This document shows, in pieces, positions 8,731 to 38,562 of a stretch of DNA of 64,000 bases (position 1 is the first letter of the stretch; each line of letters starts with the position of its first letter). The position numbers were made by a program, and so were the translations under genes. The DNA is from Bacteroidales bacterium (lineage in GTDB: Bacteria > Bacteroidota > Bacteroidia > Bacteroidales > UBA12077): contig DAOWGM010000022.1 of the NCBI GenBank assembly GCA_030637515.1, positions 39,937 through 103,936 of the forward strand. The letters are read 5' to 3'. Under the pieces are notes generated by a model. It made no database searches. It saw only the letters and a list, made by a program, of their open reading frames with translations, and was not told where the DNA came from.

Positions 8731-8759
8731 AAAGAGCGACCATATGGTTGCTCTTTTTT
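8731..8759 (+). terminator. Rho-independent terminator after rnfA
   Basis: AAAGAGCGACCATATGGTTGCTCTTTTTT: perfect stem followed by T-run. Confidence 0.88.
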
Positions 8760-8816
8760 CGGTATATTTTATTTTGTGTTTGTTTTTTTATAAATTGCTT
8801 GCTTATTCTACCAACT

Positions 8817-11108
8817 ATGAGATATAGAAAATATATAGTTTTAATTATATTTTTTACTTTGCAAATCTCTTTTCTATTTTCATCAGAAAAAAAGAACATT
8901 CTCATATTAAATTCTTACCACAAAGGTCTGCAATGGACTGATGATATTGTAAATGGCATAAATCAAAGTCTCTCTGAATATGAGTTTGAAAAAGAAGTTT
9001 TTATTGAATATTTTGATTCTAAAAGATTCTTTAATAAAGAATATCAAAAAGCATTATATGATTTGTATAAAGCTAAATATAATCAAACTGGTTTCGATAT
9101 TATAATATTATCAGATGATCATGCATTAAATTTTCTGCTTGAATATCGCGATAGCCTATTTGGAGAAGTCCCAGTTGTATTTTGTGGAATAAATAACCCC
9201 CATATTTACCCTGAAACTTATACTGGTATAATTGAAGATATCGATTATACAGATAACTTTAAACTCATAAAGGAACTTCATCCTAATTTCTCAAAAATAT
9301 ATTTTGTTGTTGATAATACAAAAACCGGAAATGTAATTTATGATAGGGCTTACAGAAGTTATCTTGCTCTTAGTAAGGGATATAGTTATGAGTTTCTTCG
9401 AGATTATAGTTTTGATGAGCTTTTTGAAAAAGTATCTTCGTTAGACGATCATTCTGTAATTCTGCTAACTGCTTTTACTAAAGATAGATTAAATGAATAC
9501 TGTTCGTATGATGAAATAGTTAGGAACCTAAGAAAACATGCTAAAGTACCTTTATATGGAGTTTGGAATTTTTATCTTGGGAAAGGAATAATTGGAGGTA
9601 AAATTATTTCAGGCTATGATCAAGGATATAAAGCTGCTAATATTGCTCAAAAAATACTTAATGGAGATATTGTAAATGAAATTAATATTGAAATGTCTGA
9701 ATCTTCATATAGGTTTGATAATAAGGAATTAAAACGGTTCGGAATTCGAAAAAGAAATTTGCCTGATAATTCAGTTATTATAAATAGTCCTTTGTCATTT
9801 TTAACAAAGAACAGACAACAAACTGTTTTCTTTAGTATAATATTTATGTTATTACTACTTGTTATTATTGTACTATGGCTATATATATTCTTCAGAAAGG
9901 CAAAAATTAAGCAGGAACGAAGGCAATTAAAAAATATTGAACTTAACAACGAAAAATTGCAACTTGCTAATGAGAAAATCGAAGAGGCAAACAAATTAAA
10001 GTCTGCTTTCCTAGCTAATATGTCTCATGAATTTAGAACTCCAATGAATGGAATTATAGGATTTTCAAAACTATTAAATGATTCTCCTGATATTGATCCT
10101 GAAACCAGAAATAAATACTTACAGATTATTCATAAGAGTGGTTATATCATTTTGGATTTGATTAACGATGTTATTGATTTATCAAAAATTGAATCAAAAA
10201 AACTAAAGATTGAGTATTCCGAATGCAATTTAAGTAATTTATTGGATGAACTTCTTAGCTTTTTTATTGCCGAACGTGATAATCATGAAAAGCAGGATAT
10301 TAAAATTCATGTTGAAAAAGAATTTGAATATAAAGACATAGCCATATATTCTGATGGTAATAGAATTAGACAGGTTTTATTTAATCTGCTAAATAACGCC
10401 TTAAAATTTACCACAAAGGGATCTATTAAGTTTGGATACTTTATAGAATCACCAAATATTTTTTTCTTCGTTAAAGACACGGGAATAGGACTTACTGAAC
10501 CTGAAAAAGAAATAATTTTTGAAAGATTTCGTCAAGTTGAAGATAAAATGACCAGAAGGTTTGGTGGTTCAGGAATTGGATTGTCAATATCAAAGGGGAT
10601 TATAGATAATTTGGATGGCAGAATTTGGGTGGATTCTGAAAAAGGAGAAGGTTCTACATTTTATTTTTCTATACCATTAAAACTCGTTGAAAAGAAGAAT
10701 GAACATGAATCTTCAAGTAAAAATACGATTCATTATTTATGGAGTGATAAAACAATTCTTATTGTTGAAGATTCCCAAATTTCTTATGAATTATTAACCA
10801 AATTTCTTAAGAATACAGAAGTAAAATTTATTCATGCGCCGGATGGAGAAAAAGCTGTTGAAATCTGCAAAAAAGAAGAAAGCATTGATCTTGTTTTAAT
10901 GGATATTCAACTTCCAATTCTTGATGGTCTTGAAGCAACTGCACAAATAAAAGAATTTAGACCCGATTTGCCCATTATAGCACAAACAGCTAATGCTATG
11001 AAAGAAGACAAACCAAATATTCTGGCATCCGGGTGTGATGATTATATTGCAAAACCAATAGACAAAACAGATTTGTTGGAAAAAATTAATATATTTTTAA
11101 GTAAATAG
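8817..11108 (+). CDS. Hybrid sensor histidine kinase with ABC-type substrate-binding sensor domain and C-terminal receiver
   Basis: Provided ORF starts at 8748 inside the rnf terminator; ATG at 8817 (MRYRKYIV) fits better. [21 protein letters not shown] sensor, [20 protein letters not shown]-box, [10 protein letters not shown]-box, [13 protein letters not shown] receiver. Confidence 0.88.
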
Positions 11109-20461: not shown

Positions 20462-23400
20462 TTAACCTATTAGATGTTTGTTAATTACAGATAATAATTT
20501 TTCTGTACCTATTGGTTTTGAAATAAACTCGTTAGCACCAGCATCAAAACTTAGATTTTGGTCTTCAGGCATCGAATAAGCCGATTGAACAATGATAGGA
20601 ACTTTACTTTGTTTTGCTCTGATTTTTCTTATAGCCTCAAGACCATCCATTTCTGGCATTTTAATATCCATTAAGATTAAATCTATCTTATAATTACCCA
20701 TACAAATATCAATAGCTTGCTGGCCTGTTTTTGCCCATAACAATTCTGCAGATGTTTTACGGATTATCATCTCAAGAAATTTGAAATTGCTTTCCTCATC
20801 TTCGGCAATTAGAATTGTTTTTTGATTCCAGTTATATTTCGAAATACCTTTTTTAGTACTTATCTTTTTTTCTGAAGTTGCTTGAATAAGTTCAAAAGGC
20901 ATATCGAATTTAAATACAGAACCCTTGTTTAATTCCGATTCTACATTTATTTCTCCCCCCATTATTTCAACGAGGTTCTTTGTAATTGTTAATCCAAGAC
21001 CAGCTCCTCTGTAAATCTTTTTCTTATTATCTTCAATTTTATTAAATCTTGTAAAGATCTGATTTTGTTGTTCCGGGCTTATTCCTATTCCCGTATCTTT
21101 AACAAAAAATTGAATCTTATCTTTACCTGTTCGGTAACCAAATTCCACTATTCCATTTTCGGTAAACTTAATGGCATTACTTATTAAATTTTTCAGAATC
21201 TGATGTAATCTATATGGATCCGTTTTTATCTCAAGCGTGTTAAATAATTGCTCTTCACCAACTTTTAATACTACTCTATCATTAGAAATAATATTGTCCT
21301 CAAACTCCATTAACAGGTCCTTAAATATTTGATTAACAAAACATCCTTTTTCGCTTATATCCAGTTGACCAGCTTCGATCTTTGCAATATCAATAATATC
21401 ATCGATTAGATTTAATAAAGAATTACTATTTTTCTTAATCAGATTAGCAAGTTCCGCTCTATGATTTTTTTCTATATCCTGATCATTTATTAAATTTGAA
21501 AAGCCAATTATAGCATTCATTGGAGTTCTTATTTCATGCGACATATTTGCAAGAAATGCAGATTTTAAACGGTCAGATTCTTCAGCTTTGTTTTTAGCAA
21601 CTTCAAGATCCTTAGTACGTTCCTGAACTAAATTTTCAAGCTTTTCCTGTTGATGTTCAAGTTGCTCATTAATTTTCTCAAGATTTTCTGCCTGAGTTTT
21701 TAATTCTTCTTTTTGGAGGCTAATTTCATTAGTTCTTTCTATAACTTTTTCTTCAAGATTTCTTTTATCTTTTATTAAATTCTTAGTTCTCAGTTTTATA
21801 TATGTAAATATGAAGATGAAACCAAGAAATACTAAGGAAATTACAAATCCTCTTGTTTTATAGAATGGTGGTATTACTTTTATTTCAAGTTCGACCGGGT
21901 TTTCGTTCCAAACTTTATCATTATTGCTCCCTTTTACTTTAAATGTATAAAATCCAGGATCAATATTGGTGTAAGTTGCCGTTCTGTTATTGGCTGCATC
22001 AATCCAGTCTTCATCAAATCCTTCAAGCATATATTCATACTGATTTTGCGGTGTGCTAGTAAAATCAAGTGCAGCAAACTCAATAATAAAAAAGTAATCT
22101 TTCTTTGTAAGTTCAATAGGTCTGTTTTCATATTGAATTTTATTAAAAGGCAACAAACTATTTCCCCAGTCGGAATTGTTCAGAATCCTGAAATCGGTAA
22201 TAACAACCTCAGGAATAAAAGGATTGCTACTTACTTCCAGAGGATTAAAATATGTTAATGCAGAGTTGCTTCCAAAGAACATATTGCCATCATTGCATTT
22301 CAATATAGCATTTCTGTTGAAACCGCTACTCTCAAGTCCATCATTATAAGTATAATTAGTTAATTTATCATTCCATGGTGAGTATTTTGATAAACCTCTG
22401 GATGAACTAATCCATAAATTACCTATATCATCTTCAGCAAGTCCAATAATCATATTACTAAGCAGATTACTATTTTTAGGATGCATGGAAAAAGATCCTC
22501 TTTCTCTGTCAAATTTTATTATACCGCTTGATTCTGTACCAAGCAATAAATTTTTGTTACGATCTTCAAAAACTATTAATACATGAAGGTCTCTTTTAAA
22601 TTTTGTAGAGTCATACTTTGTTGGTGAATAATTAATAAACTCTTCTTTTTCAGGTAAAAACTGAAATAAACCACCAGCATACGATCCAATCCAAAGTCTG
22701 TCCTGACTATCCAGATATAAGTTACTAATGTAGTTATCGATGAAAATTAAAGAATCGATTTTGTTTTGGAAATAATGTTTAAACGTATAATCCTCAGGAT
22801 TATCAGCTTTAATAAGTTTGTTCAATCCATTAGATGTGGCAATCCAGATTGTTCCGTTTTTATCTTCAACAATAGTATTAATTTGATTATTACTAAGACT
22901 AGAATTATCACCTCGTTTGCCAAGATATCTTGTAAAGTGATATTTACCGTTTTTATATTCAATCCTGTTTAACCCACCTCTGTATGTTCCTGCCCAAATA
23001 ATGCCTTCCCGATCGACTAAAACGGACCATACTCTGTTTACACTCAGAGAATTATTATTTGAAGGGATATTTTGAAAATGTGTAAAAACTTTCGTTTTTA
23101 GATTATACTTCGAGATACCTCCTCCATCAGTTCCGATCCATAGATTTTCGTTTTCATCTATATCAATTGCCATAACACTAGGATGTGGCAATGTGTTTTT
23201 AATTTCAGGATTGTGAATTATATTTTTAAATTTACGTGGTTTAAGGTCCAGTTTATTAATACCGCCTCCACGTGTTGCTATCCATAAATTTCTTGAATTA
23301 TCTTCGAAAATATATTCAATTCTGTTATGACTAATACTTTCTTCATCATTTGGATTATGTTTAAAACGAATAAATGTTTCCTTTTCAGGATCAAATTTGT

Positions 23401-24322
23401 TTAAGCCTCCCTGGTATGTTCCTATCCAAAAATATCCATATGAATCTTTTGTAATAAACTCACAATTATTATCACTTAAACTGGATTGATTGTGTGGATT
23501 ATGTTTGTAATGTGTAAAAGTTTCGGTTTTTGAATCAAATTTACTGATACCTGTTTCTCTATAAGCAATCCATATTATTCCGTCTTCATCAGCAAATAAG
23601 TGCTGAATACTATTTGAACTAATACTGTTAATATTTTTTGGATCGTGTGTGTAAATCTTAAAGGTTTCGTCGGATGGATTGTATTTATTCAATCCATTTC
23701 CTGTTCCAAACCATAATTCTTTGTTACTTGTCTCACACACGCTTTTTGCACGCAAATCGCTGAAACTTTTCGGATTATCCGGTTCAGGGTGAAAACGTGT
23801 AAAATTCTCTTCTTTTTTATTGAATTTGTTTAATCCCCCGTTGGATGTTCCAACCCAAATATTGTTTTGGCTATCTTCAAATACAAATAAAACCTGATTA
23901 TTGCTAAGGCTATTTGGATCATCCGGTTTATTTGAAAAGTTTGTAAATGTGTTTGTTCTAGGATCAAACCTGTCAATTCCACCTCCAAATGTCCCAAACC
24001 AAAATATTCCTAAAGAGTCCTGAATCATTTTTCCGAAATTACCGGTGGTAAGAGAATTGGGATTATCTATTTCATGTCTGTAAATATTAAATTCGTATCC
24101 ATCGTATTTATTTAATCCATCTTGAGTCCCAAACCATAGATATCCTGATTGATCCTGAATTATTGTATAAACATTGCTATGAGAAAGACCATCCTTGATT
24201 GATAATTTTTCGAAGTTATATTCATCTGTATTTTGAGCAAATAATGATGCTGTTGTTATGCTTATTACGAATATTATAACTCCCAAACGGATTTTTTTTA
24301 AAATTAAATCAGGATTATTCAT
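20462..24322 (-). CDS. Hybrid histidine kinase, two-component-regulator propeller / triple-Y sensor, HisKA-HATPase-REC, no HTH
   Basis: 1286 aa; many LWIGTxxGGLNKFD propeller repeats, [51 protein letters not shown]. Confidence 0.94.
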   Translation of the reverse strand: MNNPDLILKKIRLGVIIFVISITTASLFAQNTDEYNFEKLSIKDGLSHSNVYTIIQDQSGYLWFGTQDGLNKYDGYEFNIYRHEIDNPNSLTTGNFGKMIQDSLGIFWFGTFGGGIDRFDPRTNTFTNFSNKPDDPNSLSNNQVLFVFEDSQNNIWVGTSNGGLNKFNKKEENFTRFHPEPDNPKSFSDLRAKSVCETSNKELWFGTGNGLNKYNPSDETFKIYTHDPKNINSISSNSIQHLFADEDGIIWIAYRETGISKFDSKTETFTHYKHNPHNQSSLSDNNCEFITKDSYGYFWIGTYQGGLNKFDPEKETFIRFKHNPNDEESISHNRIEYIFEDNSRNLWIATRGGGINKLDLKPRKFKNIIHNPEIKNTLPHPSVMAIDIDENENLWIGTDGGGISKYNLKTKVFTHFQNIPSNNNSLSVNRVWSVLVDREGIIWAGTYRGGLNRIEYKNGKYHFTRYLGKRGDNSSLSNNQINTIVEDKNGTIWIATSNGLNKLIKADNPEDYTFKHYFQNKIDSLIFIDNYISNLYLDSQDRLWIGSYAGGLFQFLPEKEEFINYSPTKYDSTKFKRDLHVLIVFEDRNKNLLLGTESSGIIKFDRERGSFSMHPKNSNLLSNMIIGLAEDDIGNLWISSSRGLSKYSPWNDKLTNYTYNDGLESSGFNRNAILKCNDGNMFFGSNSALTYFNPLEVSSNPFIPEVVITDFRILNNSDWGNSLLPFNKIQYENRPIELTKKDYFFIIEFAALDFTSTPQNQYEYMLEGFDEDWIDAANNRTATYTNIDPGFYTFKVKGSNNDKVWNENPVELEIKVIPPFYKTRGFVISLVFLGFIFIFTYIKLRTKNLIKDKRNLEEKVIERTNEISLQKEELKTQAENLEKINEQLEHQQEKLENLVQERTKDLEVAKNKAEESDRLKSAFLANMSHEIRTPMNAIIGFSNLINDQDIEKNHRAELANLIKKNSNSLLNLIDDIIDIAKIEAGQLDISEKGCFVNQIFKDLLMEFEDNIISNDRVVLKVGEEQLFNTLEIKTDPYRLHQILKNLISNAIKFTENGIVEFGYRTGKDKIQFFVKDTGIGISPEQQNQIFTRFNKIEDNKKKIYRGAGLGLTITKNLVEIMGGEINVESELNKGSVFKFDMPFELIQATSEKKISTKKGISKYNWNQKTILIAEDEESNFKFLEMIIRKTSAELLWAKTGQQAIDICMGNYKIDLILMDIKMPEMDGLEAIRKIRAKQSKVPIIVQSAYSMPEDQNLSFDAGANEFISKPIGTEKLLSVINKHLIG
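21513..21550. repeat. 38-nt perfect direct repeat copy (H-box coding segment)
   Basis: GCATTCATTGGAGTTCTTATTTCATGCGACATATTTGC, identical to 26762..26799. Confidence 0.85.
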
Positions 24323-24351: not shown

Positions 24352-25549
24352 TTATTCACCTATTAAAAATGTTGCTAAAACTTCTAATAGTCTATTTGCT
24401 TTTATGGGTTTTGATAAATATGCATTACATCCGGCTTCCAGACTTAAATGCTCATCATTTTCCATAGCATAAGCTGTTTGAGCAATTATTGGGATTTCGG
24501 GATGAGTCTTCTTTATTGTTCTTGTGGCTTCAAGTCCATCCATGTTTGGCATTTTTATATCCATAAGAATTAAATCCGGCTCATGTTGTTTACACATATT
24601 AATGGCTTCAATGCCATCTTTTGCCCATAAAATATTTGCCTTTGTTTTGTTAAGAACCATTTCAAGATATCGATAGTTGCTATCTTCATCCTCAGCAATC
24701 AGTATGGTTTTATTACTCCATTTATATGAGTTTATTATCATGGAACTTTGATTTATAGTTTTTCTCTTTGAGCTAATTTACTAAATGGAAGGGTAAAATA
24801 AAAGGTTGAGCCCTTATCTTTTTCAGATTCGACCCATAATTTGCCATTAAGTAGTTCAGTCAAGTTCTTACTTATTGCCAGACCCAAGCCTGCTCCTCTA
24901 TATAACTTCTTCTTATCATCTTCAATTTTATTGAATCGGTTAAATATTTTAATTTGTTGCTCCGGTGACAATCCTATACCAGTATCTTTAACATAAAAAG
25001 TTAATTTCTGGTCGTTTTTTTTACTATAAAAGCAACCATATTCTATGAATCCTTTTTCAGTAAATTTCAGGGCATTATCAATTAAGTTAGATAATATTTG
25101 TTGTAGACGAAAAGGTGCTGTATATATAATGAAATCCTCTTTTTTAAGTTTATTGTTTATTCTAATCTCAATTTTATTTTTTGATAAGCTCCTTTTGAAT
25201 CAAAAGCTAAGTATCCAAATTCTGACTGTGCCCCAATAAAGATTCTTCCGTCTGTTCCCTTCACCAAGGTATATACTACAGAACTGTTGGGCATTGGAAT
25301 TAGCTGCCAGTCAGTTCCGTTATAAATTGTTAATCCGTTGTTATTTCCATAATACATTATTCCTGTGTTATCTTGCGTTATTGACCAAATTTGAGGAAAG
25401 CCTGGATATTCTTCTGGTAAATAATTATGAATAAAGGGAGACCCTAATTCTTTATACTCCTGAGTATAGACAAAGTAGGCATTAGAAATTAAACAAAAAA
25501 TTATAATTATTTTTTTCATATAAACCTTACCAATGTTTATAAATATCAT
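24352..25549 (-). pseudogene. Remnant of a propeller-type hybrid histidine kinase: large internal deletion plus a frameshift before the receiver
   Basis: N-terminal fragment 25549..25157 (FIHNYLPEEYPGFPQIWSITQDNTGIMYYGNNNGLTIYNGTDWQLIP) matches the N-terminus of the 34408..38562 kinase. Sequence then runs directly, in another frame, into a HATPase region (RLQQILSNLIDNALKFTEKG...[12 protein letters not shown]...GAGLGLAI), and the receiver (24741..24352) is in a further frame. Confidence 0.88.
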
Positions 25550-25634: not shown

Positions 25635-25666
25635 ATAAATTATTGAAAAAAAAGGACTTTCACAAA
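25635..25666 (-). promoter_or_regulatory. Putative Bacteroidota-type promoter TTTG-N20-TAATTTAT upstream of the remnant/20462 unit
   Basis: Minus strand TTTG TGAAAGTCCTTTTTTTTCAA TAATTTAT; same box spacing as at 29464 and 38587. Confidence 0.55.
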
Positions 25667-25722: not shown

Positions 25723-28700
25723 TTAAGATAAGAATTGGCTCATTAAACTTAGAAGTTTTGCTTTTTGAATTGGTTTTTTAATATATGCGTTACATCCTGC
25801 TTCTAAACTTAATTCTTTGTCATTTTCCATAGCAAAAGCTGTTTGAGCTATAATAGGTAAGTCTGGTTTTTGTTTTTTTATTCTTTCAGTTGCTTCCAAT
25901 CCGTCCATTTCGGGCATCTTTATGTCCATTAAAATCATATCAATTTCATTGTTGACACTTTTTTCAACAGCTTCAATGCCATTTTTTGCACGAATAATAT
26001 TGATATTAGTTTCAGATAAGGTCATTGTGAAAAAACGAAAATTGCTATCATCATCTTCTGCAATTAATATAGTTTTATTCGACCAATTGTATTGTTTAGT
26101 ATATTCTGATTTTAATTTATCGCTAACTTCAAATTTGTTAATTTGCTTTATTGGAATTTTAATAGTAAAAACAGAACCTTTTTCAATTTCAGATTCCACA
26201 TTAATTTCGCCCCCTAATAATTCAATCAAATTTTTACAAATTGCCAGCCCTAATCCAGCACCTTCATATAGCTTTTGTTTCTCGTCTTCAATCTTCGTAA
26301 ACCTGGTAAAAATATGAGCAAGTTGTTGTTTGTTCATACCAATTCCAGTATCCTTTATAAAGATTGATATATAGTTGTTTTCAGTTTGGTATCCAAGTTC
26401 TACAGTTCCTTCTTCTGTATATTTAATCGCATTTTCAATCAGATTTTTTAAAATTTGTTGGATTCTTCCCTGATCAGAAAATATTATTATATCCTCTTTT
26501 ATATCAGGATTTAAAATAAAATTAAATTCCTTATCGGATACTATGTCTACATAATCGAAATGCAATTCCTTTAGGAGATCTATAAAGCTAAACTCAGCTT
26601 TTATAATTTTTATTTGTTTTGTTTCAATTTTTGCTAAGTCCAGAATATTTTCAATAAGATTCAATAGAGTAAATCCATTTTTTGTTATTTCACTGGTAAG
26701 TTGTGATTTAGATTCGGAATCCAAATCATTATCGACCAATAAGTTGGAAAAGCCGATAATGGCATTCATTGGAGTTCTTATTTCATGCGACATATTTGCT
26801 AAAAACGAAGATTTTAATCGGTCACTTTCTACCGCTTTTTCTTTTGCAAGCTCCAAATCTTTTGTTCTTTCTGTAATTAAATTCTCTAAGTTATTTCTAT
26901 GTTTTTCAAGTTCCTTATTTTGTTCTTCAATTTGTTTTTTTTGATCTTGTGCGTAATCACGTTGTGCTCTTAATTCATCGCTTTGAGTTAGAATTTCTCC
27001 ATTTTGTTGATTTATTTGAGAAGTTCTTTCCTTAACTTGTTTTTCTAATATATTTCTTTGTTTTTTTATTCTATAAATACGCGATTTATTCCACAGAAAC
27101 AGGACTCCTAAAATAAAGGCAACTATGAAGATTTTAAATATTAAAGTTTGATACCATGCGGGTAGTATTTTAATTTTAATCGAAACAAAATTTTCATTCC
27201 AAATTCCTTGACTATTAGTTGATAGTACTTTAAAAGTATAACTTCCCGGATCAATATTGGTATAAGAAACATTTCGCATTTTATCGGCATCAATCCACTG
27301 GTCTTCAAAAGGTTCAAGTTTGTATTTAAACAGTATTTCTTCGGGGAAAACTAAATCTATAGCAGTGTATTTTACATTAAATCGTTTATATTTTGGTTGA
27401 ATATTAATAAGCTCTTTAAGATTAAAAGAAAAATCATTTGTATAAACCTTTTCAATAAAAATAGGAGGTAATTCATTATTTAGAGTAATTTTCTCTGGAT
27501 TTATGCAAGCAACTCCTCCTGTTGTTAAAAACCATAAATTACCTTGAGTATCTCTAAGGGATTCTGTAGCCCCAAGGCAAACGCTATTTTTCATTCCATC
27601 GCTTTTATCGTAGAATTCATAATCGATTTTATCTATTTTTTTTGCAGCATATTCGTTTAGTTGATTTTTGGAAACTTTCATAATACCTTTTGGGCCAGGC
27701 ACCCAAAAGAAACCTAAATTATCTTCTATAATATCAAATACAGTATTATTTTGTAATCCATTTTTAACAGTATAATTGGTGAAAACATTATTTTCAAACC
27801 TCGAAATTCCTGTATTAGTTGAAATCCAAAGTATATCATCATCGTCTTTATAGATATTAAAAATCATATTATCAGGTAATCCGTCAGCCATATCATATTG
27901 CTTGATTACTGAATCATTTTTTATGAAATTAATACCCTTTTTCGTTCCTGCTACTATAATGTCTGGATTATACTGCATTACAGTCATTACATAATTAGTA
28001 CTCAGGCCATTGTCTGAATTTATGGTGTAAATACTTCCATCTTTATCAATTCTATGAATCCCAGTACGATTGGTAGCGATCCATATGTTACCGTTTGCAT
28101 CTTCAAACGTTTTTCTTATATAATTATCAGGGAATCCATTATTTATATTAAATAGTTTTTCTTTGTTATTACCAATTTTTAATAAACCGCCATAAGTACT
28201 AATCCACACGTTTCCTTTACTATCTTTATACATATGTTTGATGTGAGGACTTTCTAAAGGTATTTGGGTTTTTAATTTACTTATTTGTCCATTCTTTATA
28301 ATATCAATTGTTCCGTTTTCATTTGCAACCCAAAATTCATTTTTTGCATACTGCATAATTGCAGTGTTTACATTAGAAATTAAACCTTCCGATTCTGAGT
28401 AACATGTAAATTTACCATCTGTAATTTGAAATAATCCTTTTCTGTAAGTTCCGCCCCATAAATTCCCTTGCTTATCAAATATGATTTTTACTACACGATT
28501 ATTTGGTAAACCATTTTTTTCAGATAAACATTCTGTTTGATTAGTAACCTTATTATACCTGTAAAGTCCATCGGCAGAAGATGAAATCCATAGATAGCCA
28601 TTAATATCTTCGACAATATTTTCCACAAACCTGATATTTAAATTAGGATGCCTTTGCAATTTATCATTTGAAATAGTATAAATACCATTGCTTGAAGAAA

Positions 28701-29415
28701 CCCAAATAATTCCTTCACTATCCTGATAAAATGAAAATATTTCTTCGGAAGTGTTATGCATGTCGCATGGTACGAAAACATTGTCCTTATATTTAATAAC
28801 TTCTCCCTTTATTGTACCAATCCAAACATTGCCTGAATAATCTTCGAAAATTGCATAAATTGCGCCGGATGTGATTTTTTTTAAATCATTATAGTGAATT
28901 AAACTATCACCGTCATATTTAAACAATCCACTTGCATTTGTACCAATCCAAATATGGTTATTACTATCAATAAAAATGGATTCAATATTTGAATTGTCAA
29001 GTAATTGAAGCTTTTTATCCCTATATAAAACATTGTCTTTAATAAGAGTTATTCCTTTTTGAGTACCTATCCAGATAATTCCTTCTTTATCTTCGCATAG
29101 AATTTTAACAGCTTCGGTTAATAAGGCATCGTTATTTTGCGATGTAAAATTTGTGAAACTAATTCCATCAAATCTGGAAATTCCTCCATATGTAGCAATC
29201 CAAATATAACCATTTTGGGATTGAATAATATTACTTACTGCATTTGAAGTTAAGCCATTATCAATTGTCCATGACCTAAGCCTATATTGAGTTAATGCTT
29301 TTTTCGGATCGAGGCTTTTTAATTGAGCAAGGATTGAGGTTTGAGATATAATAATTAAAATAAATGCAAAAGCTAATTTTAATCGTATTTTAAATATGCG
29401 CTTTAACCAGTTCAT
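25723..29415 (-). CDS. Hybrid histidine kinase with propeller/triple-Y sensor and C-terminal receiver, no HTH
   Basis: 1230 aa; [88 protein letters not shown]-type receiver. Confidence 0.94.
26762..26799. repeat. 38-nt perfect direct repeat copy (H-box coding segment)
   Basis: Identical to 21513..21550; encodes [13 protein letters not shown] on the minus strand. Confidence 0.85.
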
Positions 29416-29463: not shown

Positions 29464-29495
29464 ATAAATTATCGAAAAAAAAGCACTTTTACAAA
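29464..29495 (-). promoter_or_regulatory. Putative Bacteroidota-type promoter TTTG-N20-TAATTTAT upstream of the 25723..29415 kinase
   Basis: Minus strand TTTG TAAAAGTGCTTTTTTTTCGA TAATTTAT, about 50 bp upstream of the start codon. Confidence 0.6.
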
Positions 29496-34407: not shown

Positions 34408-37400
34408 TCAGGATAAATACTTATTTATTAGTTTCAGTAACTTTGACTTTCTTATTGGTTTAGCAATATAGTCATTGCATCCAGCTTTCACACTCATTTT
34501 TTCATCGTTTTCCATAGCGAAAGCAGTCTGGGCTATAATGATAATATCTTCATCTATTTTTCTAATTCTCCGGGTTGCTTCAATACCATCCATATTTGGC
34601 ATTTTTATATCCATCAATATCAGATCAATGTTCTTTTTCTGAAATTTTTCAATAGCTTCAATACCATCTTTTGCTCTAACTAAGGTTACATTTGTTTTTG
34701 ATAGTACCATTTCCAGAAAGCGGAAGTTACTTTCTTCGTCTTCAGCAACTAAAATTGATTTGTCTGCCCAATTATAAATATTTTCTTTTTGATTTTCTTT
34801 CAATATAATACCATTCTCCGATACTTTTAAGTAAGGAATTGTAAAATAAAAGGTCGACCCTTGCTTTGGTTCTGATTCTACCCATACATCTCCACCAAGT
34901 AAATTCGAAATATTTTTACATATTGCAAGACCTAATCCGGCTCCTCTGTAGAGTTTCTTTTTATCGTTTTCGAATTTTGTAAAACGGCTAAATATCTGAC
35001 CCTGTTGCTCTTCTGTTAGTCCAATACCTGTGTCTTTTACGAAAAACTGTATAGTTGAATCTTCATTTTCTTCTTTCAAAGTATAACCGATCTCTATTTT
35101 TCCGGTTTCGGTAAATTTTAAAGCGTTGTCTATTAGATTGATTAATATCTGTTGTATTCTTATTGGATCGGTATATGTAGTAAAATTTATATTTTCAATA
35201 CCAGGCTTAAAAACTAAATTAAGGTCCTTGTGATGAAGTAGCTTTTTCTTTTCAGAAAAAGTTTCAAACAATTCGTTTAATATTTTATTAATCTGACAAT
35301 TCTTCTTGTTAATTTCTAATTGTCCTGCCTCAATTTTTGCAATATCAATAATATCATCAATCAAGTGCAGTAATGTATTGCTATTATGAATAATATGCGA
35401 AACTAATTCATCTTTATCTTCTTTGACAATGTTATTGTCGTTTAGTAAATTAGAGAAACCAATAATGGCATTCATAGGTGTGCGAATCTCATGCGACATA
35501 TTGGCTAGGAAAGCAGATTTTAATTTATCAGATTGTTCTGCTTTTTCTTTTGCTATTTCCAAATCAATAGTTCTGTCCTTTACTAATTGCTCAAGTCTGT
35601 TTCGGTGTTTTCCTAGCTCTTTATTCTGTTCTTCAATAAATAGTTTTTGTTGCTGAGCAAAATCTCTTTGAGCTTGAATTTCATCTTTTTGTTGCATTAC
35701 TTCCTGTTCTGCTAACTTTAATTTTGTTATATCAGAATCAATGGCGATCAATTTAATCACATTTTCATTTTCGTCTAAAATGGGAGTAATTGTTGTATGT
35801 GCCCATATATTTTTTCCGGATTTAGAATTGTTTAATGATTCATAAATTTTACTTTGCTTAGTTTGTAAGCAATAGTCAATGGCATCTTTTATATTTTTAC
35901 TTATACTAAAATCAACTAAAGTGTTATAATTTAGTTGATTCAAATCTTCAAAGGAATATCCATAAAGTCTTGTAAAACCCGCGTTAACCCACTCCAGGTT
36001 GCCATTTTCATCAGCTATTGCAATAGCATTATCCGTTTCGCTAGCAACAATTGATAACTTTTCTAATTCTTCATTCTTAGTTGTAAGTTCTTCTGATTGC
36101 GTTAGGATTTCTTCTTTTTGCTGATTTATTTCATAAGTGCGTTTTTCTACTAGTCTTTCTAATTCTACATTTATTATTCTTAACCTTCTGATACTAATTC
36201 TAACAACTCCAAAAATTAATATAATTCCTATAATAAAATATCCTATATATGCAGTTGGTTTCCGATACCATGGAGGTAGTATTCTGAATTCAAAGCTTGC
36301 TTCAGTACTAATGATATTATATATATTTTTGGTTCTAACTTTAAATTTGTATAAGTCTTCATTAAGATTAGTATATTCTTTGGTTGTTATATTATTCCAG
36401 CCAGACCAGTTTTTATCATATCCTTCAAGCATATATTGATATTTCAGATTTGATCCATTACTGAATTCAGGTGAAGCATATTTAAAAATAATTGAATTGT
36501 AACGAAAATCAATTTTATATTTGAATCTTTCATTTTGGATTGAGGAAAAGCATTTTTTATTATCCTTTTCAATGTAATAATTGCCAAAGAAGATGACAGA
36601 ATCATTTTTAATACTTACGTTTCTTATGTAGGAATGGAATTCTTTATTGTAATTTTTTTGAATAGAGTTATCAAACCTGAATATACCATCTGTTCCTCCA
36701 ATCCAAATAATGTTATCAGGTTCAATAAGCATTGCTCGTATTCCTGTTTCGGGTATTCTGCTTAATGCAGCTGAATTCCATGAATAGCTTCCATCAGGAG
36801 CTTTGGAAGCGATGCCAATAGAGCCGGGTTTGCTTATTATTTGCGAAATCCAAACATTTTTTTCATAATCTTCAGTTAACAAATAAATATCTTTTTGTTC
36901 TCCTTTAAAAATATCACCAAAAGTATTATCTGAGATAAATTTATCTGAATTTTTATCGAAACGGTATAAGCCAAATTCGGTTCCAAATACAATTGTATTA
37001 TTAAAATCAAATACCATAATGTCTTTTAGTGAAGGCAAACCCGATTTAATATCATAGTGAATTATTTCTTCAGGATTTAAAATATCATCAGACGGCATAA
37101 TACGAACAACACCATGACGATAAGTACTTATCCATATCTCTCTATTTTTATCTTCGGCTATTGTCCTTACACTAATACCGGAATTAAGAATTGTTCCTTT
37201 ATACTCGAATTTGCCTTTCTTGTATTCCAAAACACCTATATTATTTCTTAAACCAGCATATACTATATTAGGATTTGAAGGAGATTGATATAATTTAAAA
37301 GATAATTGGCTTGTCCATTTATTTACTAATGTTTTATTTTTAATTTCATAAATTCCTTCAGTTGTAGCAACCAAAAGCATTTTGTTTGAACCACTAATAT

Positions 37401-38562
37401 CTGTAAAGTTTAGAAATGACCAAGCCTGTACAATATCTCCCGGTATTTTATGAACCTTATTATTTTCTATATAGTAAATTCCCTGTAATGTAGAAATGTA
37501 AATAGTTTCTTCGTAACGAATTATGGATTCAACAATTCCTTCAAGGCCGGTTAATTCGTTCCATAGTGTTATAGGGAGTGATATGTCACATCGCGAAATT
37601 CCATTATTAAGTCCAAGCCAAAGGTTACCCATATTATCAATGTACACTGTCCGAACATTATTATGTTGGATTCCTTTATTTTTTGTAAAATTATAGAGTA
37701 CATCACCTTGTCGGTTAATTATTAGACATCCACATCTGTTTGTTCCAAGAATAATCTTTTCATCTCTTGTAACGATTCCTGTATTAACAAAGTTCTCTGT
37801 TAAAAATTTATTTGCTTCACAAACAATATTACTAAGCTTACTTGTCTTGTCATATGTAGGATTATAGGTGTAAAGTCCTCTTGTTCTGTCAGCCAGAATT
37901 ATTTCATTTTTAAACTGTTCTGCAAAGTAAAATGTTTTATTTATGAAGTCTTTTCCATCAGGAGCCAAAACTAATATTTCGTTTTCTAATTTAAACAATC
38001 CTTTTTTCGTGTCAACGATAAATAGCTCATTGTTAAAACTGAACGCAATATTATAAGTGGATTCAGACTTCCAGTATGTGAAGCCGTTTTTGTTTAATTG
38101 AATAAGATAATCTGATGATCTGAAATAGATATGGTCTTTTATAGTTATGATATCCCTTATAATTCCTATATCACTAAAGCCAAGAGAATCAATAAGAGAA
38201 AAATATTTCAGTTTGCCACATTTATCTGGTTGCAGATACCCTATTTCATTAGTTCCTGCGGCGTATATAATACCATTTTGATCTTTTGCTAAAGCTCTGG
38301 ATGATATTTTATTTGGTAACCGAATTAGTTCCCAGTCATTTCCATCAAAAATTGTAATCCCGTCACCATTTGCAAAATAAATAAATTCCCTACTATCCTG
38401 AATGATATCCCAAATTTGAGGATGCCCTTTATATTCTTTTACACCGAAATTAGTTATAAATGGATTTCCCGTTTCATTTTGAGCATTTAATGCGAAGGTT
38501 ATATTAAAAGTAAGTATAATAAAAATCCAAAAGAATAATTTAAAATTCTTTATCATGAACAA
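34408..38562 (-). CDS. Propeller/triple-Y plus PAS hybrid histidine kinase with C-terminal receiver
   Basis: 1384 aa; divergent propeller, triple-Y region, PAS (SETDNAIAIADENGNLEWVNAG), [36 protein letters not shown]. Confidence 0.93.
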   Translation of the reverse strand: MFMIKNFKLFFWIFIILTFNITFALNAQNETGNPFITNFGVKEYKGHPQIWDIIQDSREFIYFANGDGITIFDGNDWELIRLPNKISSRALAKDQNGIIYAAGTNEIGYLQPDKCGKLKYFSLIDSLGFSDIGIIRDIITIKDHIYFRSSDYLIQLNKNGFTYWKSESTYNIAFSFNNELFIVDTKKGLFKLENEILVLAPDGKDFINKTFYFAEQFKNEIILADRTRGLYTYNPTYDKTSKLSNIVCEANKFLTENFVNTGIVTRDEKIILGTNRCGCLIINRQGDVLYNFTKNKGIQHNNVRTVYIDNMGNLWLGLNNGISRCDISLPITLWNELTGLEGIVESIIRYEETIYISTLQGIYYIENNKVHKIPGDIVQAWSFLNFTDISGSNKMLLVATTEGIYEIKNKTLVNKWTSQLSFKLYQSPSNPNIVYAGLRNNIGVLEYKKGKFEYKGTILNSGISVRTIAEDKNREIWISTYRHGVVRIMPSDDILNPEEIIHYDIKSGLPSLKDIMVFDFNNTIVFGTEFGLYRFDKNSDKFISDNTFGDIFKGEQKDIYLLTEDYEKNVWISQIISKPGSIGIASKAPDGSYSWNSAALSRIPETGIRAMLIEPDNIIWIGGTDGIFRFDNSIQKNYNKEFHSYIRNVSIKNDSVIFFGNYYIEKDNKKCFSSIQNERFKYKIDFRYNSIIFKYASPEFSNGSNLKYQYMLEGYDKNWSGWNNITTKEYTNLNEDLYKFKVRTKNIYNIISTEASFEFRILPPWYRKPTAYIGYFIIGIILIFGVVRISIRRLRIINVELERLVEKRTYEINQQKEEILTQSEELTTKNEELEKLSIVASETDNAIAIADENGNLEWVNAGFTRLYGYSFEDLNQLNYNTLVDFSISKNIKDAIDYCLQTKQSKIYESLNNSKSGKNIWAHTTITPILDENENVIKLIAIDSDITKLKLAEQEVMQQKDEIQAQRDFAQQQKLFIEEQNKELGKHRNRLEQLVKDRTIDLEIAKEKAEQSDKLKSAFLANMSHEIRTPMNAIIGFSNLLNDNNIVKEDKDELVSHIIHNSNTLLHLIDDIIDIAKIEAGQLEINKKNCQINKILNELFETFSEKKKLLHHKDLNLVFKPGIENINFTTYTDPIRIQQILINLIDNALKFTETGKIEIGYTLKEENEDSTIQFFVKDTGIGLTEEQQGQIFSRFTKFENDKKKLYRGAGLGLAICKNISNLLGGDVWVESEPKQGSTFYFTIPYLKVSENGIILKENQKENIYNWADKSILVAEDEESNFRFLEMVLSKTNVTLVRAKDGIEAIEKFQKKNIDLILMDIKMPNMDGIEATRRIRKIDEDIIIIAQTAFAMENDEKMSVKAGCNDYIAKPIRKSKLLKLINKYLS

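Follow-up and report, generated by a model that had tools for sequence, protein, structure and literature searches.

A probable deletion pseudogene of a receiver-less sensor kinase beside an intact stand-alone response regulator in a Bacteroidales bacterium

On the minus strand of the window, by which we mean the whole stretch of 64,000 nucleotides analysed here, three coding stretches in three different frames lie between the hybrid kinases 29415..25723 and 24322..20462, within a tandem array of sensor kinases that runs from 38562 down to 20462. They very probably represent a receiver-less, membrane-anchored sensor histidine kinase that a deletion has turned into a pseudogene, together with its surviving partner regulator. 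The deletion itself has produced an ordinary pseudogene and is a case of routine decay; what is unusual is the retention of the regulator beside a kinase that is exchangeable and dispensable. A literature search did not find a description of this locus.

The two halves of the broken kinase

The first half is an open reading frame of 130 aa (25157..25549, minus strand), in which a hydrophobic, signal-peptide-like start leads into the first propeller blades (about 100 aa), as the original prediction had described; its last seven or so codons lie past the junction and are read in the wrong frame. The expected alignment with the N-terminus of the Reg_prop kinase 34408..38562 is also found (41% identity over query residues 17-122, E 4.4e-22), and this part resembles many other Reg_prop kinases, although its Reg_prop score falls exactly at the cut-off, only the ~100 aa propeller start being left. 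The domain scan found no Y_Y_Y domain in the remnant, whereas the domain is present in the propeller-type homologues at the same locus of related genomes. No close full-length orthologue of the dead kinase was found in the genomes searched, and in a search of 295 genomes of the order the best match to this part was 49% identical. A scan of named genome contigs returned only distant Pinibacter loci (34-38%), and an apparent short open reading frame of 140 aa in G178 was rejected as a truncated homologue since it is made by the end of a contig.

The second half (24753..25181, minus strand) lies in the -1 frame relative to the propeller frame, and the claim that another frame continues into the ATPase domain at the junction is confirmed. 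It reads KIEIRINNKLKKEDF...LSNLIDNALKFTE and matches HATPase_c (E 1.5e-27), with no start codon from which the full domain could be read, so that, given the E value of 4.4e-22 for the first half, neither likeness is due to chance. The catalytic H-box (HisKA) was absent from the remnant in the domain scan. The stop at 24753 is the native stop of the kinase, as in the related genome G019, where the tail KLAESEKL corresponds to KLAQREKL in the window, each followed directly by the stop codon. There is no internal stop in this half and its dN/dS against intact kinases is 0.11-0.21, so most of the divergence predates the deletion, which is recent relative to it. Of 29 near-invariant HATPase columns one is altered, the D of TDPxRLQQ having become A, and between one and four changes of this sort also occur in several kinases that are intact.

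The junction and the size of the deletion

The two halves meet at CTTATCAAAAAA (25177..25188, minus strand), where the reading frame changes by -1. When the DNA is aligned with that of six related receiver-less kinases, homology on the HATPase side begins exactly at cTTATCAAAAAATAAAATTGAG, and GGAGCTTATCAA is the end of the propeller side; the join can be placed anywhere in 25188..25177. Up to about 12 nt at the join may be microhomology. Beyond the join the propeller frame stops after about seven codons.

The size of the loss is best judged against full-length propeller kinases of 1105-1114 aa (~3.34 kb), without PAS or receiver domains, which occupy the same slot in G010, G019 and G012, with the same leader element on one side and the same regulator gene on the other. 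They consist of a signal peptide, propeller, Y_Y_Y, TM helix, HisKA and HATPase. Measured against them the window copy lacks about 855 aa, or ~2.56 kb. The original prediction had put the loss at roughly 3 kb by comparison with 34408..38562; the loss is indeed large, but that kinase, with its PAS and receiver domains and 1384 aa, is the wrong yardstick. The view that most of the propeller, the triple-Y domain and the H-box have gone is correct, and the lost parts also include the TM helix and the linker to HATPase. Compared with the intact homologues in this slot, the gene thus has a disrupted frame (the -1 change and the stop seven codons past the junction) and lacks essential parts. The original prediction advised looking for the full-length gene at this locus in sister strains; the sister genomes searched do have full-length kinases in the slot, but no close orthologue of this exact kinase was found.

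The ancestor would have carried a Reg_prop propeller, Y_Y_Y, a TM helix, HisKA and HATPase, and no receiver. That it was receiver-less agrees with the position of its HATPase in the receiver-less clade and with a native stop just 5' of a separate regulator, at a spacing like that in G019. Both ends, the frame change and the intact homologues in the same slot are plain observations. From these we infer a single deletion of ~2.56 kb, probably by slippage or end-joining at ~8-12 nt of microhomology (CTTATCAAAAA), which would have brought the beginning of the propeller up against HATPase with a frame change of -1. Any product of the remnant would be a secreted fragment of at most ~120 aa, most likely inactive. 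A kinase without an H-box and TM helix passes on no phosphosignal, and the remnant, lacking both, should therefore be unable to signal.

One gene or two

In a HATPase tree the remnant groups with the receiver-less kinases of G010, G015 and G016 (support 100/99), and its grouping with the slot kinase of G019 is rejected (AU test, p-AU 2.8e-7). The flanking genes, in contrast, are closest to those of G019 (88-94%), as is the regulator (91%), which indicates that the slot kinase has been exchanged between lineages. Of the proposal that a hybrid kinase suffered a recent deletion in a family prone to exchange, the word hybrid has to be dropped; the remainder is supported, both ends being intact and homologous to the ends of full-length slot kinases and HATPase coming from another lineage than that of the closest species (p 3e-7).

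The most serious competitor to a simple internal deletion is a fusion of two genes, in which the start came from a propeller kinase and HATPase from another receiver-less kinase next to it, of the TPR type for instance; we regard this as possible, though clearly the less likely origin, and the kinase is dead either way. Two receiver-less kinases do stand in tandem in G010, G015 and G019, and at the junction the remnant reads KIEIRINNKLKK, as do the MASE6 and TPR kinases of G010, G015 and G016, and not KINIIVNNKLKN as does the G010 propeller kinase. Transmitters, however, have been swapped freely among sensors in this clade, so that HATPase says little of the sensor once attached to it. A simple internal deletion, moreover, involves no second gene, and the distance between the leader and the start of the remnant fits a single slot gene.

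It is improbable that the join is an artefact of assembly between paralogues and that the true genome has a full-length kinase. The source genome is a draft of 185 contigs (the window lies in G000:C72), 91% complete and with 7.7% contamination, and the region is rich in paralogues. Only ~12 nt are shared across the join, though, and assemblers normally need overlaps much longer than that. A search of the assembly gave no further copy of the one half or the other, the next best matches being 41% (N-terminal part) and 62% (HATPase) identical, and independent stubs in the same slot of G013 and G017 indicate that loss of the kinase at this position recurs.

Still less credence attaches to the idea that the truncated arrangement is functional, either as a secreted propeller fragment or, through -1 frameshifting on the six consecutive A at 25182..25177, as a fusion. 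These six A do coincide with the join and each half is an open frame, but the frameshifted product would have a signal peptide and neither TM helix nor H-box (the helix of intact slot kinases lies at ~766-785), which would place its ATPase domain outside the cytoplasm. Nor was the exact truncation found in any other genome searched. Programmed frameshifting was rejected on these two grounds. Conservation of the exact truncation in many genomes would have spoken for a working gene; it was seen in none of 20 genomes of the genus, two of which carry different stubs at the same place, and the deletion reading withstands this check.

The stand-alone response regulator

The third coding stretch (24352..24741, minus strand) is an intact, separate and conserved gene that encodes a response regulator of 129 aa. 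It consists of a single receiver domain with its acidic pocket, phospho-Asp and conserved Lys motifs intact, including SKP, as is expected of a single-domain response regulator. The gene stands alone in 15 of the 20 genus genomes searched, with 67-91% identity among the others, and each of the 15 copies is intact, even those of the window, G013, G017, G005 and G006, where the slot has no intact receiver-less kinase. Where the upstream kinase is intact, its native stop lies 10-40 nt before the regulator. The regulator is under purifying selection: its pN/pS is 0.09-0.19 in comparisons with the window, and the same range is found between genomes that retain a kinase.

A tree of 49 receivers places all the stand-alone receivers together (98/91) and apart from those of the hybrid kinases, with one exception, the C-terminal receiver of a G007 kinase, which joins the stand-alone lineage. 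The p-AU was 0.25 for a clade of stand-alone receivers only, excluding the fused G007 receiver, and 0.18 for a grouping of the window regulator with those of G010, G015 and G016.

These data contradict the original prediction that the locus was one hybrid kinase with a receiver, since the receiver is a conserved gene of its own in the window and in sister genomes; the supposed hybrid kinase is thus two genes, of which only the kinase is dead. That a true hybrid kinase had its receiver split off by a frameshift at about 24750 is hardly credible, even though its neighbours in the array are hybrids and G007 has a receiver of this lineage joined to a kinase, because the stand-alone receivers form one lineage and nine sister genomes (G010, G015, G016, G019, G012, G009, G003, G008 and G002) have an intact kinase with its stop and then a separate regulator start at similar spacing.

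Turnover of the kinase slot in sister genomes

Across the genus, nine genomes have an intact receiver-less kinase in the slot; one has a fusion there, another a frameshifted kinase, three have stubs (the window included) and two show no trace. Besides the propeller kinases already described, TPR kinases stand upstream of the free regulator in G016, G015 and G009; in G003, G008 and G002 the kinase at this place has the sensor of the window gene 25723..29415. In G004 the slot kinase is split across frames. In G007 it is fused to the regulator (L080:3399-7157), with no free regulator alongside, and this is likely to be a natural fusion of kinase and regulator. G013 retains a HATPase stub of 37 aa (L076:5387-5497) and G017 a scrap of ~45 nt, whose score against the window tail was reached by none of 1000 shuffled sequences; in G005 and G006 no trace of a slot kinase was detectable and the next gene upstream is a hybrid kinase.

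A promoter-like leader element, TCCTTTTTTTTCAATAATTTAT (25635..25656, minus strand), lies upstream of the dead kinase and is conserved before slot kinases of differing sensor types. Read as TCAAAAAC...TTCTTTTTTTTCAATAATTTAT, it precedes slot kinases with unlike sensors in eight genomes, the window included, and it has two matches in the window against a chance expectation of 0.08. The second of these, with two mismatches, is at 29464..29485 on the minus strand, upstream of the hybrid kinase 25723..29415. Scans for sigma-70 promoters and terminators gave no signal beyond chance level.

We tentatively describe this position, framed by leader and regulator, as a kinase slot in which sensor kinases are swapped, fused or lost, with the regulator perhaps kept as a shared hub of the array and not as the partner of one kinase. 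The regulator 24741..24352 probably still receives phosphoryl groups from the closely related hybrid kinases around it in the array, and would either hand these groups on or act as a competitor for them. Cross-communication between related hybrid kinases is known from the Gac network (PMC8175716). The genome also has, at another place, a small candidate HPt protein that stands alone (a frame of 125 aa), so that a phosphorelay is possible. With the kinase so labile and the regulator stable, the shared-hub role becomes testable: one regulator can be compared across genomes in which the neighbouring kinase is of the propeller or TPR type, fused, a stub or absent, and such a comparison is a natural experiment on whether single-domain regulators need a cognate kinase or act as shared receivers of an array.

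Relation to known systems

The domains of the intact slot kinases are shared with the Reg_prop/Y_Y_Y sensor histidine kinases of Bacteroidota, which are relatives of HTCS, but the slot kinases have no receiver or AraC-type DNA-binding domain in the same protein, and in the window copy nothing is left between the first propeller blades and HATPase. The HTCS of Bacteroides are described in one account (PMC11253607) as combining sensor kinase and regulator in one chain. The window gene does not fit that definition, as HisKA is absent and the receiver is separate both here and in sister genomes; the scan for HTH_AraC gave no match in the remnant or the regulator, nor in any of the array kinases that it covered. 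The regulator is like other single-domain response regulators in structure, yet differs from them in that the lineage includes a receiver that is part of a kinase (in G007) and in that the regulator outlives its neighbouring kinase in several genomes.

It is well established that two-component genes are lost, fuse, split and decay into pseudogenes, and the deletion reported here is a fresh instance. Among myxobacterial two-component genes, domain-loss indels, pseudogenes and the fusion and fission of kinases and receivers have been catalogued (PMC4603909); the changes seen here are of the same kinds, but recur at a single slot of the same array inside one genus.

Other rearrangements in and around the array

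Several further rearrangements were noted in the same arrays. In G006 the orthologue of the window kinase 24322..20462 (L106:1284-1495) is reduced to a propeller start (residues ~22-57) joined directly to the HATPase N-box (~1045-1073), with further stops, and reads as an independent deletion of the same kind in the next gene of the array. An orphan scrap in G016 (L069:404-462) that encodes RLQQILSNLIDNALKFTE lies between a small upstream open reading frame and the slot leader and is a relic of another kinase. A MASE6-type kinase of G012 (L074:17550-18289) is split across frames, and the G003 orthologue of 34408..38562 (L077:2404-3050) is split after ~200 aa.

On L068, L069 and L070 (G010, G016 and G015, respectively), TPR, MASE6 and propeller kinases have HATPase domains of 85-92% protein identity joined to unrelated sensors, with apparent breakpoints near the HisKA-HATPase linker, which suggests repeated exchange of transmitters within the array. 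The window kinase 25723..29415 is a possible mosaic, its sensor being 68-71% identical to those of the receiver-less slot kinases of G003, G008 and G002 and its HATPase and receiver grouping with hybrid kinases of G013 and G009. Outside the array, a plus-strand hybrid kinase (8748..11108) has a sensor like an ABC substrate-binding protein, and its transmitter DNA resembles that of the array, forming inverted repeats with it.
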